Virus record (IMG/VR): IMGVR_UViG_3300031507_000022
Span: 1 to 30,669 of that record
Origin: a virus
Direction: 5' to 3' (one strand)
Length of the DNA: 30,669 nt
In this document: positions 20,771 to 26,011 of the stretch, piece by piece
How the letters are laid out: each line of letters starts with the position of its first letter
How positions within the stretch are numbered: the first letter of the stretch is position 1
Position numbers and translations under genes: made by a program
The notes under the pieces: model-generated
Database searches by the model: none
What the model was told of the DNA's origin: nothing
What the model saw: only the letters and a program-made list of their open reading frames with translations

Positions 20771-21096
20771 GCTTCCACCGTCGACAAAGGCGACACGCGC
20801 TTGGCGATCTCGCGGAACACGTCGATCGCCTTCGGGTCCACAGGAACGAACCTCTCGGCCGGGAACGCTGGCTGTGTCGCGTAGTCCCAGTTGCCGTAAC
20901 GCCGCTTCGGGTTGGGCAGCTCGCGGAGCGTGAGCACAGTCTCGGCACTCCGCACACACACGCCAACCTCGCGGATCGTGTAGAGCGTTCCCTTCACCGG
21001 CAGCAACTCGTCGCCGTGCGCAAAGACCGACGGCCGCGCCGTGTATAGGCAGCGCACCAGAAGGCCAGGAACAGGGTTGTACGTCAGCTTGCTCAC
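20767..21096 (-). CDS. Hypothetical early protein, GTG start
   Basis: A 109-residue protein directly after the repressor gene; the GTG at 21096 overlaps its stop as GTGA. It is beta-rich (GLLVRCLYTARPSVFAHGDEL, VKGTLYTIREVGVCV, ETVLTLRELP) and ends with a helix (PKAIDVFREIAKRV). The first 70 residues resemble small SH3/Tudor-like barrels often seen in phage early proteins, but this is an impression only. No metal motif. Confidence 0.7.
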   Translation of the reverse strand: MSKLTYNPVPGLLVRCLYTARPSVFAHGDELLPVKGTLYTIREVGVCVRSAETVLTLRELPNPKRRYGNWDYATQPAFPAERFVPVDPKAIDVFREIAKRVSPLSTVEA

Positions 21097-21293
21097 GACT
21101 GCGTTTCCTTCGGCACCACCAGATCGTCAACCTTGAGGCCGGTCACGTTCACTATCCTCACCGCCAGCGGCAGCTTCGGAGTTAACTTTCCGTGCCGCAT
21201 CTTCGATATGACCGATCGGTCGCACCCGACCTGGGCAGCGAGCTCGACGTCTCGCGTCTTTGACTTCTTCATCCAGTCGTCGAGCTTTGTCAT
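21093..21293 (-). CDS. Cro/CI-type repressor
   Basis: A 66-residue XRE-family helix-turn-helix protein and the first gene of the leftward early operon. TRDVELAAQVGCDRSVISKM is the HTH: a Val/Leu-rich first helix, Gly in the turn and a Ser-Val-Ile-Ser recognition helix. RIVNVTGLKVDDLV completes the five-helix core. There is no C-terminal self-cleaving domain, so it resembles Cro or a YdaS-type regulator. The ATG at 21293 is preferred over frames starting up to 21482 because the promoter at 21301-21329 would place transcription start almost on this ATG (see the leaderless finding). Confidence 0.8.
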   Translation of the reverse strand: MTKLDDWMKKSKTRDVELAAQVGCDRSVISKMRHGKLTPKLPLAVRIVNVTGLKVDDLVVPKETQS

Positions 21294-21300
21294 ACTCGAA

Positions 21301-21329
21301 ACCCTGTGCGAGCCGCGCACGAATGTCAA
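21301..21329 (-). promoter_or_regulatory. Promoter of the repressor and leftward early operon
   Basis: Reading leftwards: -35 TTGACA (21329-21324), 17-bp spacer, -10-like CAGGGT (21306-21301) with the key A at position 2 and T at 6. The expected start falls at about 21294-21293, on the ATG itself, which predicts a leaderless or nearly leaderless message. GTCAAT, part of the box, recurs about 30 bp further upstream. Confidence 0.55.
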
Positions 21330-21944
21330 TAGTGTTTCTGGTGGAAGGCTAGCAGGGTCAATGTGGCGCACTGCCGACGCAGCTCCGAATGTTCCCGAAT
21401 TGGCGTGCTGATTCATCCGCTTGCACTTCGCGCCCCACGACACGATCGATTTCGGCTTGCCGACCACAGCACCTAACCTCAACCCTTAGAGCCTATCTTC
21501 ATAGTTCTCAGAAAGACCGTGCTCTCCGCAACCTCAAGGCGGGGGCACGTTCCTCAATCGATAGTCGCCACATCCATACTGCCGGCAGGCCCTTTGATTT
21601 CGGGGTGCCTCATCCCCGCTCCGCCCGCAGGCGCCATCCTGCGGTCTGTGCTCGTTGCGTCGGTAGAGCCGGTTTTGGTTCGGTCGGTCTTGCTTCCCGT
21701 GGACACTGGCCGAGCGTGTTGAGCCCTCGGCTGGCCGTTGAGGTTTGATCCGTGCTGCGCAGCACCAGGGCTAGAGCAAGCCTGCAAAAAGACTGCCCTG
21801 AAGCCTTTCGCTCTGATTCGCGTGGCGGGAACATCCGAGCTGACCCACACGTCGCGGCGATCGACCGGCACCGAGAGAGTGGGCGGAATCGAAGCGCGAA
21901 AAGCCTTAGATGCTGCCGGAGTTTATTGAAAAGCCGCTGAATAT

Positions 21945-22151
21945 ATGCCAATTAGGCTTCAGGACTTGACCGTTCGAGCTTGGCAGCATTCGGTCAGTTC
22001 GCGCCTCGGGATAGAGCAAGTTGCTCTCTCGGGGCGCAATCATTTTGTGCGCTCGCCATCCCCTGTTCGTCAACCGATTTTGCAAAATCGCGTATGGCCG
22101 CTTGACTATCCTGTGCTTGACGCGCACATTGAGCGCGTTCTTCTGGGGTAG
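21945..22151 (+). CDS. Possible 68-residue protein in the control region
   Basis: An open frame from ATG at 21945 to TAG at 22151, five bases before the HNH gene. The composition is not the Arg-rich type of shadow frames (for example PILQNRVWPLDYPVLDAH), so it may be real. Against this, it has no ribosome-binding site and would contain the 22002-22036 dyad and the rightward promoter boxes. No resemblance recognised. Confidence 0.25.
   Translation: MPIRLQDLTVRAWQHSVSSRLGIEQVALSGRNHFVRSPSPVRQPILQNRVWPLDYPVLDAHIERVLLG
22002..22036. repeat. Large imperfect dyad in the control region
   Basis: AGAGCAAGTTGCTCT is a perfect 7-bp inverted repeat about a single central base. Outside it, CGCC ... GGCG adds four more pairs with a few mismatches, giving a 35-bp element centred near 22020. 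There is no T-run after it, so it is better explained as an operator or origin element than as a terminator. The half sequence TAGAGCAAG recurs once at about 21772. Confidence 0.5.
22102..22130 (+). promoter_or_regulatory. Promoter of the rightward early operon
   Basis: -35 TTGACT (22102-22107, within CTTGAC, the alphaproteobacterial consensus), 17-bp spacer and -10-like CACATT with A at position 2 and T at 6. A start near 22137 leaves a 20-nt leader before the ATG at 22157. A second CTTGAC lies 15 bp downstream at 22116-22121. Confidence 0.45.
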
Positions 22152-22156
22152 AAGCG

Positions 22157-22513
22157 ATGCGAGCAGCAACCGGCGAAGCGCAGAAATTCTTGCGCGAAGT
22201 AGTCCTTCCTTACGATGGCACGGAATGCCTGATCTGGCCATTTGCCAAGACAAAGAAGGGCTATGCGCAGATCGGAATCGACGGCAAGACGAGGCTGGTT
22301 TCCCGCGTCGTCTGCGAAAAGGCACATGGCCCGTCGCCATCTCCGCGACACCACGCAGCGCATAATTGCGGCCACGGCTATGATGCATGTGTCGCGCGGC
22401 GTCATCTTGCATGGAAAACCCCAGCCGAGAACGAGGCTGAAAAGCGAGATCATGGCAAATACGAACGCCGTGGTCGGCAGTTTTCAAAGGCAAAGGGACG
22501 CTACTATGCTTAA
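22157..22513 (+). CDS. HNH endonuclease
   Basis: A 118-residue HNH nuclease of the kind found free-standing in phages. The N-terminal part (ECLIWPFAKTKKGYAQIGID) is the usual small beta-sheet domain that binds DNA. The catalytic core follows: HHAAHNCGHGYDACV, then RRHLAWKTPAEN, with His69 and His83 as likely metal/general-base residues and Asn92 as the third. A basic tail ends the chain. It opens the rightward early operon. It may be a homing nuclease or a packaging/DNA-processing aid; a second HNH gene lies at 29290-29706. The end overlaps the next start by eight bases. Confidence 0.8.
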   Translation: MRAATGEAQKFLREVVLPYDGTECLIWPFAKTKKGYAQIGIDGKTRLVSRVVCEKAHGPSPSPRHHAAHNCGHGYDACVARRHLAWKTPAENEAEKRDHGKYERRGRQFSKAKGRYYA

Positions 22514-22838
22514 ACCCAATCCTTACCTTCTCGTCGACAAGGACCGGCACGGCTGGTCGGAGATCGAGGTCGCGCAGTTCGAGCGCGCCCGGCGCCGTGG
22601 CACCGTTGACACGTTCGAGCGCTGCCGGTCGTACAACGCGGTGCTGAACTTCCTCAACAAGCGCCCGGCCTATTCGCACGCGCCGTTCCTGACCTTCGGC
22701 GAGGCGGCACACGTCCTTGGCGTGCTGGTACGGAGCACTCGCATCGGGCAGGGAAACGCTGACGGCCTGCGCGAGCGCTACATCGTCGCCCGCTACTTCG
22801 CGCGCAAGCGCTTTGCACGACCGGAGGCTTGGAACTGA
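22506..22838 (+). CDS. Hypothetical 110-residue protein
   Basis: Starts at the ATG at 22506 inside the end of the HNH gene (ATGCTTAA overlap) and stops at TGA shared with the next ATG (TGATG). The chain is basic and helical (SEIEVAQFERARRRGTVDTF, then FLTFGEAAHVLGVLVRST and RERYIVARYFARKRF). FGEAAHVLGVLVRST could be a helix-turn-helix, making it a possible DNA-binding protein, though the turn Gly is not in a firm position. Longer upstream readings shadow the HNH gene. Confidence 0.7.
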   Translation: MLKPNPYLLVDKDRHGWSEIEVAQFERARRRGTVDTFERCRSYNAVLNFLNKRPAYSHAPFLTFGEAAHVLGVLVRSTRIGQGNADGLRERYIVARYFARKRFARPEAWN

Positions 22839-23194
22839 TGGACATTCGCGAACTGAAACTGTCGCCCCGCACTCGCAATACCCTACGCAACATGGGCGTG
22901 ACGACGATTGAGCAAGCTAGAGCGCTTGACGATGCTGCGTTGCTTCGTGAGCCGAGTTTCGGACGCAAGTCGCTGCGCGAACTCAGAGAGGCGATCGCGT
23001 CGATTCCGAAGGAAGCTGTCGCTCGTCGCCAGGATCATCGCCGGATGATCGCGATGTGCGTCATGGGGGAATGCTTGGTGCAGGCGTTCAAGACCCCTTC
23101 TGAAACCGAAGAAAGGACATGCGACCGGGCTGCCAAATGGGCCGTCATATCGGCCAACGCGCTCCTCGCCCAACTGGATAAGAACCGTGGCTGA
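22838..23194 (+). CDS. RNA polymerase alpha C-terminal-domain-like protein
   Basis: A 118-residue protein whose first 55 residues are an alpha-CTD fold: MDIRELKLSPRTRNTLRNMG, then TTIEQARALDDAALL and FGRKSLRELREAIASI. Arg11, Asn14, Gly42, Lys44, Ser45 and Glu48 correspond, with identical spacing, to E. coli alpha Arg265, Asn268, Gly296, Lys298, Ser299 and Glu302. Those residues contact UP-element DNA or activators. The C-terminal 60 residues are helical and unlike alpha. Phage protein mimicking alpha-CTD could compete for UP elements or bind sigma/activators and so redirect host polymerase. It is early and coupled (TGATG) to its neighbour. Confidence 0.8.
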   Translation: MDIRELKLSPRTRNTLRNMGVTTIEQARALDDAALLREPSFGRKSLRELREAIASIPKEAVARRQDHRRMIAMCVMGECLVQAFKTPSETEERTCDRAAKWAVISANALLAQLDKNRG

Positions 23195-24242
23195 CTCGTA
23201 CGACTGGTGGAAGCGCGCTCTCGCCAACCCGAAGGGTATCGGCAAGGGCGATCTGATCGCGACGACGGAGCCGCAATGCGGTTTCTACAAGAGGCGCATG
23301 GTCAAGGGCGGCGCCTGGGTGCCGGTCTGGATATTCGTCAAGCCGGACACCGACAGCGAACTCGGCGCTCGCATTACCGTTGACGGTCGCACCAAGGATG
23401 TCGGCGCGTCCGAGCAGTGGGAGGGTGGAGTTTACCAGCGCCCAATCGCAATGGACGTCTATGAGGCCGTCGCCGAGCGCGGCGAGCCGTGGCCGGATGC
23501 CGATCCTGACGTGAGCGAATCGCGCTTCGGTGCCAAGTCGAACGAGCCGGAGGACGAGGCGGAAATCCTCGCCAGCCAGATCGAGTCGGCCGGCGCCGCG
23601 GCGAACAAGTACGCCAAGTTTGAACGCTGGACCGGCACGAGCAAGGCGCGCAAGCCGATCGTTCAGTCGCTCATCAAGACCGACGCGGACGCGGCGAAGG
23701 CGCAGGAGGTCCGCTCTCGGCTGCTGGAGCTCTACCGTGAGGGCGAGAAGAAATTCGAGACGGAGAAGCGGCCGGTCAACGAGGAGGCGCACCGCATTGG
23801 CGAGCGCTGGCGCTTCCGCCAGGACGCGCAGGACAAGGCCGACATCGTGCGGGCCGCTCTGTCCGTCTACGAGACGGAGAAGCTTCAGAAGCAGCGCGCC
23901 GCCGAGGAAGCCTCGCGCAAGGCGCAGGAGGAAGCGGCCAACCGTGAGGCCGAAATCGACTTCATGAACGACGAGCCAGAGCCGGAGGTCGTTGCGCCGC
24001 CACCCGCGACCGCGCCAGTCGAGACGACGATCAAGGGCTCGAGCGGTCGCGCCGCGACCAAGACGACGGTGTTCCAAGTGACGGAGGTCACGGACGTCGA
24101 CGTGCTGTTCGCGTGGAAGCCTATCCACGATCATCGGGAGATGGTGCCCTTCCTGCTCAACTTGGCGCGCCGCGCCTACAAGGATGGTGGTCACCGGGGC
24201 ATCCCCGGCGTCAAGATCGACGAAGTCGTCGACGTTCGCTGA
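23187..24242 (+). CDS. Large coiled-coil early protein near RecT
   Basis: A 351-residue protein with GTG at 23187, eight bases inside the end of the alpha-CTD-like gene. The first 110 residues look folded and beta-rich (GGAWVPVWIFVKPDTDSEL). Residues 120-260 are a highly charged coiled coil (EKKFETEKRPVNEEAHRIG; KLQKQRAAEEASRKAQEEAA). A Pro/Ala linker then leads to a conserved-looking end (DVDVLFAWKPIHDHREMVP ... GIPGVKIDEVVDVR). Proteins ending in PGVK-type tails commonly accompany RecT-type genes in phages and may act in recombination. No catalytic motif recognised. Confidence 0.7.
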   Translation: MADSYDWWKRALANPKGIGKGDLIATTEPQCGFYKRRMVKGGAWVPVWIFVKPDTDSELGARITVDGRTKDVGASEQWEGGVYQRPIAMDVYEAVAERGEPWPDADPDVSESRFGAKSNEPEDEAEILASQIESAGAAANKYAKFERWTGTSKARKPIVQSLIKTDADAAKAQEVRSRLLELYREGEKKFETEKRPVNEEAHRIGERWRFRQDAQDKADIVRAALSVYETEKLQKQRAAEEASRKAQEEAANREAEIDFMNDEPEPEVVAPPPATAPVETTIKGSSGRAATKTTVFQVTEVTDVDVLFAWKPIHDHREMVPFLLNLARRAYKDGGHRGIPGVKIDEVVDVR

Positions 24243-24255
24243 AAGGAGCGATCCT

Positions 24256-24921
24256 ATGCTGAAGTATCTGGTTTTCGACACCGAGACGTCCGGCCTGCCG
24301 GATTACGCAGCGCCGGCCGACGATCCCAACCAGCCGCGGCTCGCCGAGTTCGCAGGCATCACCGTCTCGTTCGATCCAGAGGACGGTGCGCCAGCGGTCA
24401 TCGCGACCGAACCGTACCTCGTGAAGCCCGACGGCTGGGTCATGGAGGCGCAGGCGACGGCGGTGAACGGTCTTACGACCGAATACCTCATCGAGCACGG
24501 CAAGCCGCTCTCCGGCCTGCTGGCAGCCTACGTCGAGGCGATCAAGGCCGGCTGCATCATGGTCGCCTTCAACGCGCGCCACGACTTGAAGGTCATGCGC
24601 GGCGAACTGCGACGGGCCGGCATGGAGGATATGTTCGAGCAGACTCCGAACATCTGCCTCATGCGCTCGTCCTGGCAGAAGGCGCTCGACATGAGGAAGG
24701 CGGATGGCTCGCGCCGCGGCTGGCCGGCTCTCACCGATGCCTGCCGTCACTTCGGGCTCGATCATGCCGACGATCACCGCGCGGCCAGCGGAGCGCGCAA
24801 CGCTCTCGGTGTGTTCCTGAAGCTGCGTGAGATCGGCATGCTGCTGCCGGCCGAGATTCACTACGCCAAGAACAAGCCGCAGCCGGACCCGCAGGGCAGC
24901 CTGCCCACGATGGACTTTTAA
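24256..24921 (+). CDS. DEDDh-type 3'-5' exonuclease with a variant third motif
   Basis: A 221-residue protein with GGAG ahead of its ATG. It is a DnaQ/PolC-epsilon-type fold: motif I FDTETSGL (Asp8, Glu10), motif II AFNARHDLKVM (Asp110), and motif III HRAASGARNAL (His174). The family pattern is HxAxxD, but residue 179 is Gly, not the metal-binding Asp. So activity may be lost or altered. The extreme C-terminus LPTMDF is weakly like a clamp-binding hexapeptide. Between RecT and the coiled-coil gene it fits phage recombination or proofreading. A palindromic repeat follows the stop. Confidence 0.85.
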   Translation: MLKYLVFDTETSGLPDYAAPADDPNQPRLAEFAGITVSFDPEDGAPAVIATEPYLVKPDGWVMEAQATAVNGLTTEYLIEHGKPLSGLLAAYVEAIKAGCIMVAFNARHDLKVMRGELRRAGMEDMFEQTPNICLMRSSWQKALDMRKADGSRRGWPALTDACRHFGLDHADDHRAASGARNALGVFLKLREIGMLLPAEIHYAKNKPQPDPQGSLPTMDF

Positions 24922-24958: not shown

Positions 24959-26011
24959 ATGAGCGACCATGCCGACCACGATCCGAAGCTTCTTCCGACA
25001 CTCCAGTCAGGCGGCAGCGTGCGCGCGATCATTCCGCAGGACTTCGACAGCGCCTATCGCATCGCCAAGGCTGTGTGCGTCGCCGGCATGGCTCCATTCG
25101 GCCTGGACACGGCGGAGAAGGCGACGGTTGCCATCCTGCACGGGCTCGAGGTTGGCCTATCGCCGATGATCGCGCTTCAGTCGATAGCCGTCATCAACGG
25201 TCGACCGAGCCTGTGGGGCGATGGCGCTATGGGCCTGGTGCAGTCGAGTGGCAAGCTTGAGACGATCAAGGAATGGATCGACGGCGAGGGCGACAAGCGC
25301 ACGGCCTATTGCCGCGTGATTCGCCGGGGCGATCCCGAGCCGAAGATCGGAAAGTTCAGCGTCGCCGACGCGAAGCTTGCCAAACTGTGGGGCAAGACCG
25401 GGAAAACCGGACAGCCGACGCCGTGGGTGACGCACCCTGATCGCATGTTGCAGATGCGCGCTCGCGCATTCGCTCTCCGTGATGCCTTCGCCGACGTGCT
25501 GCGCGGTTTGGCGATCGCTGAGGAGATGCGCGACGTCGAGACGACGAACGCCCAGCCGGTCGTCCAGCCGGCGAAGCCTACCGAGACGGCACCAGCGAAG
25601 CCCGCGGCCACAGCGAAGCCGAAGGAGGCTGCAAAGCCCGCCCAGGTGTCCGAGAACACAGGCAAGAACGTGGTCGACGCGCAGGCTGAGGACATCGACT
25701 TCACGCGCGGCGAGCCGGAGCCCGGCACCGTCGAGCAGGACGAGGCCGATGCAGCGGAGGCCGGCGAGGTGATCTACGGCCGCGACGCAGAGGGCAACGT
25801 GCTGACGTCTGGCGATCTTCTCAGCGCGCTCCACGATGCGCTGAGCCAGTCTCCTACCGCTGCCGCGTGCGAGGAGGTGTTCGGCCAGCACGACTTGATG
25901 GCGATCTTCAGCGGCAAGGCGGCGCAGGATCCAGACAGCGAGCAGAACATGCAGATCGCCAACGGCATGCTCGCCACGCGACTGCGCGAGATCAAGAAGG
26001 GCGGGAAGTGA
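24959..26011 (+). CDS. RecT-type ssDNA-annealing recombinase
   Basis: A 350-residue protein of the RecT/Red-beta superfamily as found in many phages. The diagnostic stretch is AILHGLEVGLSPMIALQSIA, then NGRPSLWGDGAMGLVQSSG (about 58-98), and the second part of the domain ends near WVTHPDRMLQMRARAFALRDAF (about 155-178). The protein should anneal complementary single strands during replication or repair, usually with an exonuclease; the neighbour at 24256 is a candidate though it lacks one Asp. A long Ala/Pro/Lys/Thr linker (200-270) leads to a helical C-terminal module, which is longer than the core family and may contact partners. Confidence 0.9.
   Translation: MSDHADHDPKLLPTLQSGGSVRAIIPQDFDSAYRIAKAVCVAGMAPFGLDTAEKATVAILHGLEVGLSPMIALQSIAVINGRPSLWGDGAMGLVQSSGKLETIKEWIDGEGDKRTAYCRVIRRGDPEPKIGKFSVADAKLAKLWGKTGKTGQPTPWVTHPDRMLQMRARAFALRDAFADVLRGLAIAEEMRDVETTNAQPVVQPAKPTETAPAKPAATAKPKEAAKPAQVSENTGKNVVDAQAEDIDFTRGEPEPGTVEQDEADAAEAGEVIYGRDAEGNVLTSGDLLSALHDALSQSPTAAACEEVFGQHDLMAIFSGKAAQDPDSEQNMQIANGMLATRLREIKKGGK

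Follow-up and report, generated by a model that had tools for sequence, protein, structure and literature searches.

The window, the whole stretch of 30,669 nucleotides that was analyzed, is a viral IMG/VR entry (IMGVR_UViG_3300031507_000022) with genes for a terminase large subunit, DnaB, an N4/N6 methyltransferase, RecT, a RuvC-like protein and an HslV-like protease. It contains a small gene whose product resembles the C-terminal domain of the RNA polymerase (RNAP) alpha subunit (alpha-CTD). This gene and its surroundings are arranged as follows.

21093-21482, minus strand: divergent helix-turn-helix regulator, Cro/CI-like (PF01381, E 1.9e-4, just under the cut-off; phrog_1373)
22157-22513, plus strand: HNH endonuclease, first gene of a rightward, putatively early cluster (phrog_1872, E 2.5e-15)
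22506-22838, plus strand: preceding gene, about 110 aa (open reading frame; stop codon overlapping the alpha-CTD gene start)
22838-23194, plus strand: gene for the alpha-CTD-like protein, 118 aa (open reading frame, Pfam, PDB sequence search, predicted structure)
22841-23008, plus strand: RNA_pol_A_CTD domain, residues 2-57 (Pfam; AlphaFold2 with alignment; VIA-align Z 10-12 to solved alpha-CTDs)
23033-23188, plus strand: helical hairpin module of the phrog_2201 C-terminal type, residues 66-117 (phrog_2201 match, HMM, hhalign)
23187-24242, plus strand: exonuclease-like protein, 351 aa, first 8 bases shared with the alpha-CTD gene (phrog_10477, E 2.2e-6)
24256-24921, plus strand: RNase T/DnaQ-type exonuclease (PF00929, E 1.2e-11)
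24959-26011, plus strand: RecT-type single-strand annealing protein (PF03837, E 1.7e-7; phrog_561, E 2.7e-30)

The ATG of the alpha-CTD gene is preceded by GGAGG and overlaps the stop codon of the preceding gene (TGATG). Since the gene overlaps both neighbors, it is embedded in the cluster, and its translation is likely to be coupled to that of the preceding gene. For the 100-aa part of the latter (22536-22838), no Pfam or PHROG match was obtained, and no relatives of the 351-aa exonuclease-like protein were found in viral contigs. Judging from the kinds of genes present, the cluster probably consists of early genes. The 674 bases between the regulator and the HNH gene (21483-22156) are without a convincing gene and include the lowest G+C content of the region (0.51 at 21900-22049); that of the window is 63%. 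Upstream, a promoter scan revealed nothing conspicuous in the way of an UP-like A+T tract or a sigma-70 promoter. Relatives of the RecT protein include those of Komagataeibacter and Rhizobium phages, while most matched records are Salinibacter phages. That the host is an alphaproteobacterium is no more than a guess. When synteny was followed through the RecT relatives L068 and L069, an alpha-CTD was found in neither record.

The alpha-CTD is a main upstream DNA contact of bacterial RNAP and is targeted by phage proteins. RNA_pol_A_CTD (PF03118) was the sole Pfam-A family matched by the 118-aa protein (E 1.2e-9; residues 2-53 correspond to profile positions 14-65 of 67), and the score of 38.2 bits clears the gathering score of 23.8 bits. 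All phmmer matches among PDB chains up to E 0.6 were RNAP alpha subunits, the top match being 9zum (E 1.1e-6), the alpha-CTD of Caulobacter bound to AT-rich DNA, and identity to alphaproteobacterial alpha-CTDs reached 43%. As far as sequence comparison goes, the likeness to RNAP alpha-CTD far exceeds chance. Full-length relatives of the protein were not detected in phages, plasmids, viral contigs, genome contigs or 289 alphaproteobacterial genomes; the alpha-CTD half alone was matched. Nearly all genome matches to this half were rpoA, and an alpha-CTD family search of 385 genomes revealed few extra copies other than rpoA.

An AlphaFold2 model based on 27 sequences had a mean pLDDT of 86.8, with residues 1-60 in blocks of 90-98; since the underlying alignment contains alpha-CTDs, the model is only partly independent of the sequence evidence. 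A single-sequence model with the same helix order was set aside for its low quality (pLDDT 53). The top Foldseek and VIA-align matches were solved alpha-CTDs (7vpd, Z 12.2; 1lb2, Z 10.2; 9zum, Z 10.0), which overlaid 57 residues of the model at about 1 Å. The N-terminal domains of RAD51/Dmc1-type proteins also overlaid the model (VIA-align Z 8.6-9.4). Thus, the fold by itself cannot separate alpha-CTD from a RAD51-type helix-hairpin-helix.

This likeness and the RecT and exonuclease neighbors make a role in recombination or replication a live rival explanation, according to which the hairpin half would bind RecT or the exonucleases while the helix-hairpin-helix half binds DNA, duplex or branched, with transcription uninvolved. 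The clustering of an HNH nuclease, two exonucleases and RecT in overlapping genes would fit such a helper. However, the sequence profile is alpha-CTD-specific, and no HHH_5 or RAD51-type Pfam family was listed for the 118-aa protein up to E 10, although most matches weaker than about E 0.1 are removed by the HMMER filters. Moreover, small early phage genes often adjoin recombination genes without a common function. We regard a recombination helper as possible but rather unlikely.

In the structural alignment, residues 1-57 corresponded to E. coli residues 255-311; with all 57 residues aligned, the alignment is ungapped. It confirmed the residue pairs proposed in the preliminary description, in which Arg11, Asn14, Gly42, Lys44, Ser45 and Glu48 were placed on R265, N268, G296, K298, S299 and E302. 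A seventh DNA contact omitted there, Asn294, is Ser40 in the 118-aa protein. The DNA-binding face described as intact is therefore retained at six of its seven contacts, N294 being replaced. That the protein is devoid of an assembly domain, as had also been stated, is borne out by its length of 118 aa and the start of the CTD at residue 2; the N-terminal assembly domain of RNAP alpha (about 235 aa) is absent. The profile match above the cut-off and the predicted alpha-CTD fold likewise support the original domain assignment.

Besides R265 and N268, positions N294, G296, K298, S299 and E302 are known DNA contacts of the alpha-CTD. R265 and N268 are critical to DNA binding in E. coli (PMC11434276). 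When compared with a residue consensus built from 76 non-identical RNAP alpha-CTDs, the protein agreed at 6/7 contacts versus 15/47 other positions (Fisher p 0.011). When the comparison was confined to the 16 non-contact positions with a conservation of 80% or more, 8 agreed (p 0.18 for contacts versus these). The DNA face is thus retained, though its conservation does not clearly exceed that of the remaining well-conserved sites. Apart from N294 (S), differences from the consensus include E261 (K), V264 (P) and C269 (T). Position 261, a sigma contact and Glu in 93% of the RNAP sequences, is occupied by Lys7. Since this sigma-facing position is reversed, the protein probably acts from DNA and not as a working alpha-CTD substitute inside the polymerase. 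At the activator face (positions 285-288), it has D-D-A-A, compared to T-E-A-E in the RNAP consensus. Lys7 and D-D-A-A argue mildly against a full stand-in role. An alpha-CTD surrogate brought to phage promoters by host activators or sigma would be in line with the intact fold and with Glu5, which retains the acidic residue of position 259, but both substitutions and the absent link to the polymerase core make it very improbable.

The preliminary description had suggested recruitment by host activators or competition for UP elements, which are two among several candidate roles. The kept DNA face and the absent assembly domain would also suit a strict mimic, in which the free alpha-CTD displaces its host counterpart at the UP elements of strong promoters, those of rRNA included, and reduces host transcription in a dominant-negative manner. 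However, a single free alpha-CTD binds UP DNA weakly, so that such a mimic would need high expression or self-association, and Asn294 is lost. Phages are known to modify RNAP alpha (T4 ModA, ModB and Alt) or to cut off its CTD (Rac of LUZ19) (PMC7552054). The Rac case establishes alpha-CTD removal as a phage takeover route and speaks for the strict mimic, which we nevertheless consider quite unlikely. The same enzymes could lend some sense to a decoy for proteins that modify or cut the host alpha-CTD, or to another protein-binding role without DNA binding. Since no such enzyme was identified in the window, this speculative idea is the most improbable that we weighed.

The C-terminal half is modeled as two long helices (residues 58-84 and 89-117; blocks at pLDDT 68-90). 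A direct PHROG scan of the 118-aa protein yielded phrog_2201 (E 0.004), and a weak tblastn match in Vibrio phage 1.246.O (E 5) opened the route to a hairpin family of small phage proteins, present in 312 phage records and characterized by the pattern GLTKREMFAMHAM...ADALLKELEK. The four tested family members matched phrog_2201 (E 2e-13 to 1e-18). A ten-member HMM, from which the seed member found through the 118-aa protein was left out, scored this protein at 20.6 bits (E 1.7e-4), while the best of 7702 control ORFs reached 6.3 bits. Comparison of the residues 66-117 module with the family by hhalign gave 94.8%, with that seed included in the family alignment. Residues 66-117 thus match the C-terminal module of standalone phrog_2201 proteins such as NVP1246O_35 (AUR98042.1) of Vibrio phage 1.246.O. 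The usual members begin with a short leader (MKNADMPAMP), whereas the 118-aa protein has its alpha-CTD there. A phrog_2201 search of 115 alphaproteobacterial genomes gave zero matches, with the controls equally silent.

Small alpha-CTD proteins are also common in other viruses. One IMG/VR scan with a broader alignment detected relatives in 105 viral contigs, 80 of which were kept and read. All 80 proteins are small (ORFs of 75-288 aa) and form 45 clusters at 70% identity. The alpha N-terminal domain was matched by none of them (best E 2.9) but by 89 rpoA controls, and PF03118 was matched by all 26 proteins tested. In a scan of 27, HHH_5 was additionally present in five and sigma-70 region 4 in one. 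The R265 position is kept in 76/80 and the N268 position in 61/80. Since the search pattern selected for residues around 293-302 and the 118-aa protein served in the confirmation, conservation in that stretch is biased, at 265 and 268 less so. Many further alpha-CTD matches in phage collections were set aside as full rpoA genes, probably host DNA. Six records filed under bacteriophages (MT835508, MT836419, MT837142, MT837602, MT837710 and MT839913; read in L099-L102, L104 and L105) contain a full-length alpha gene and therefore probably represent host DNA.

In four clusters (21-23 contigs), profile comparison yields matches between the hairpin family and the region N-terminal to the alpha-CTD. 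First-round E values of the best module-first members lay between about 0.005 and 0.03, and the remainder matched only after these had been added to the profile. The hhalign comparison of this group with the hairpin family gave 92.5%, the best of 40 column-shuffled controls 7.4%. These fusions (L245, L226, L231 and L239 types) combine a hairpin module and an alpha-CTD in one small protein, as does the 118-aa protein, but with the module first and the alpha-CTD last; L232 possibly has the order of the 118-aa protein (E 0.11). Direct profile comparison of the module-first modules with the residues 66-117 module gave no match, and the kinship therefore runs solely through the standalone hairpin family. 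That hairpin and alpha-CTD are fused in both orders points to a joint function. L245 (327-530) and L239 (194-409) have a standalone hairpin copy near the fusion (phrog_2201, E 6.9e-19 and 4.5e-8). As stated in the preliminary description, the last 60 residues are unlike alpha; they do, however, recur in other small phage proteins. The alpha-CTD protein is no singular case either, given the 105 viral contigs and several proteins so named in UniProt/BFVD.

The company of these fusions bears on both main readings. Near the module-first fusions lie an exonuclease and a replication initiation gene (L231), genes for RusA and a Ref-like nuclease (L226) and a DNA polymerase gene (L245), in line with the recombination helper. 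On the other hand, sigma-70 region 4 is the partner of the alpha-CTD in further viral proteins. This holds for L005 (4259-4849) and L004 (5749-6201; sigma match just below the Pfam cut-off) and, judged by eye only, for L103 (850-1863) and L300, with region 4 or a similar helix-turn-helix. In L014 (3710-4174), the terminal portion of an alpha-CTD comes after a weak match to a late activator (Mor-like). Such joining suggests that the domain is tied to transcription in these viruses. A further match, to the MzaA anti-phage sigma-like protein, covers the sigma part of L005. An alpha-CTD-like domain near the start, with 7/7 contact residues and an unrelated longer part after it, is found in gp23 of Ruegeria phage vB_RpoS-V16 (L007, 2923-3789), annotated as a helix-turn-helix protein in one record and as a pyrophosphatase in the other. 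Genomes G150 and G238 (L126 and L127) share a protein of roughly 600 aa that has an alpha-CTD-like domain close to its N-terminus and a sigma-like stretch recognized by eye.

We tentatively favor, though we give it somewhat less than an even chance of being right, an early phage DNA-binding protein in which an alpha-CTD is fused to a phage-specific hairpin and which alters transcription. DNA binding is the most likely property predicted for it. The alpha-CTD half would bind A+T-rich DNA in the minor groove, at sites lying upstream of promoters, and the hairpin half could pair copies of the protein or tether it to a phage partner. At its sites, the protein would change transcription early in infection, either by occupying UP-like sequence otherwise used by the alpha-CTD of the polymerase or by marking phage promoters. 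This reading is favored by the overlay of the model on DNA-bound alpha-CTDs, including 9zum, and by the alpha-specific Pfam and PDB matches. The contact residues not being clearly better kept than other well-conserved positions (p 0.18), the RAD51-type fold match, the recombination neighbors and the promoter scan without a conspicuous UP-like tract or promoter count against it. A bolder proposal, which we deem unlikely at present, is that small free alpha-CTD adaptors are widespread in bacterial viruses, are repeatedly joined to the same phage-specific hairpin module in both orders and, early in infection, direct the host polymerase or obstruct its upstream contacts, as an unrecognized class of transcription takeover factors.

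Several phage proteins in UniProt/BFVD bear the name "RNA polymerase, alpha subunit, C-terminal", for example A0A5Q2WLP1 of Mycobacterium phage Mithril and two entries from uncultured Caudovirales phages, A0A6J5L490 and A0A6J5NZM6. The kind is therefore already annotated; these proteins are small and share the fold of the 118-aa protein. Among the open-licence papers searched, we found none on phage-encoded alpha-CTD proteins or their function. The present analysis adds what the second half is, that alpha-CTD and hairpin are fused in either order, and how many viral relatives were counted. If phages commonly carry free alpha-CTD copies tied to a phage module, this would add a takeover route to those acting on the host alpha subunit, and the recurrent fusion gives a handle on the phrog_2201 module. 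In summary, the 118-aa protein has in common with the RNAP alpha C-terminal domain (PF03118) the family assignment above the cut-off, the fold and 6/7 DNA contacts, but it differs from the RNAP alpha subunit in being without the N-terminal domain and in having an extra helical module.
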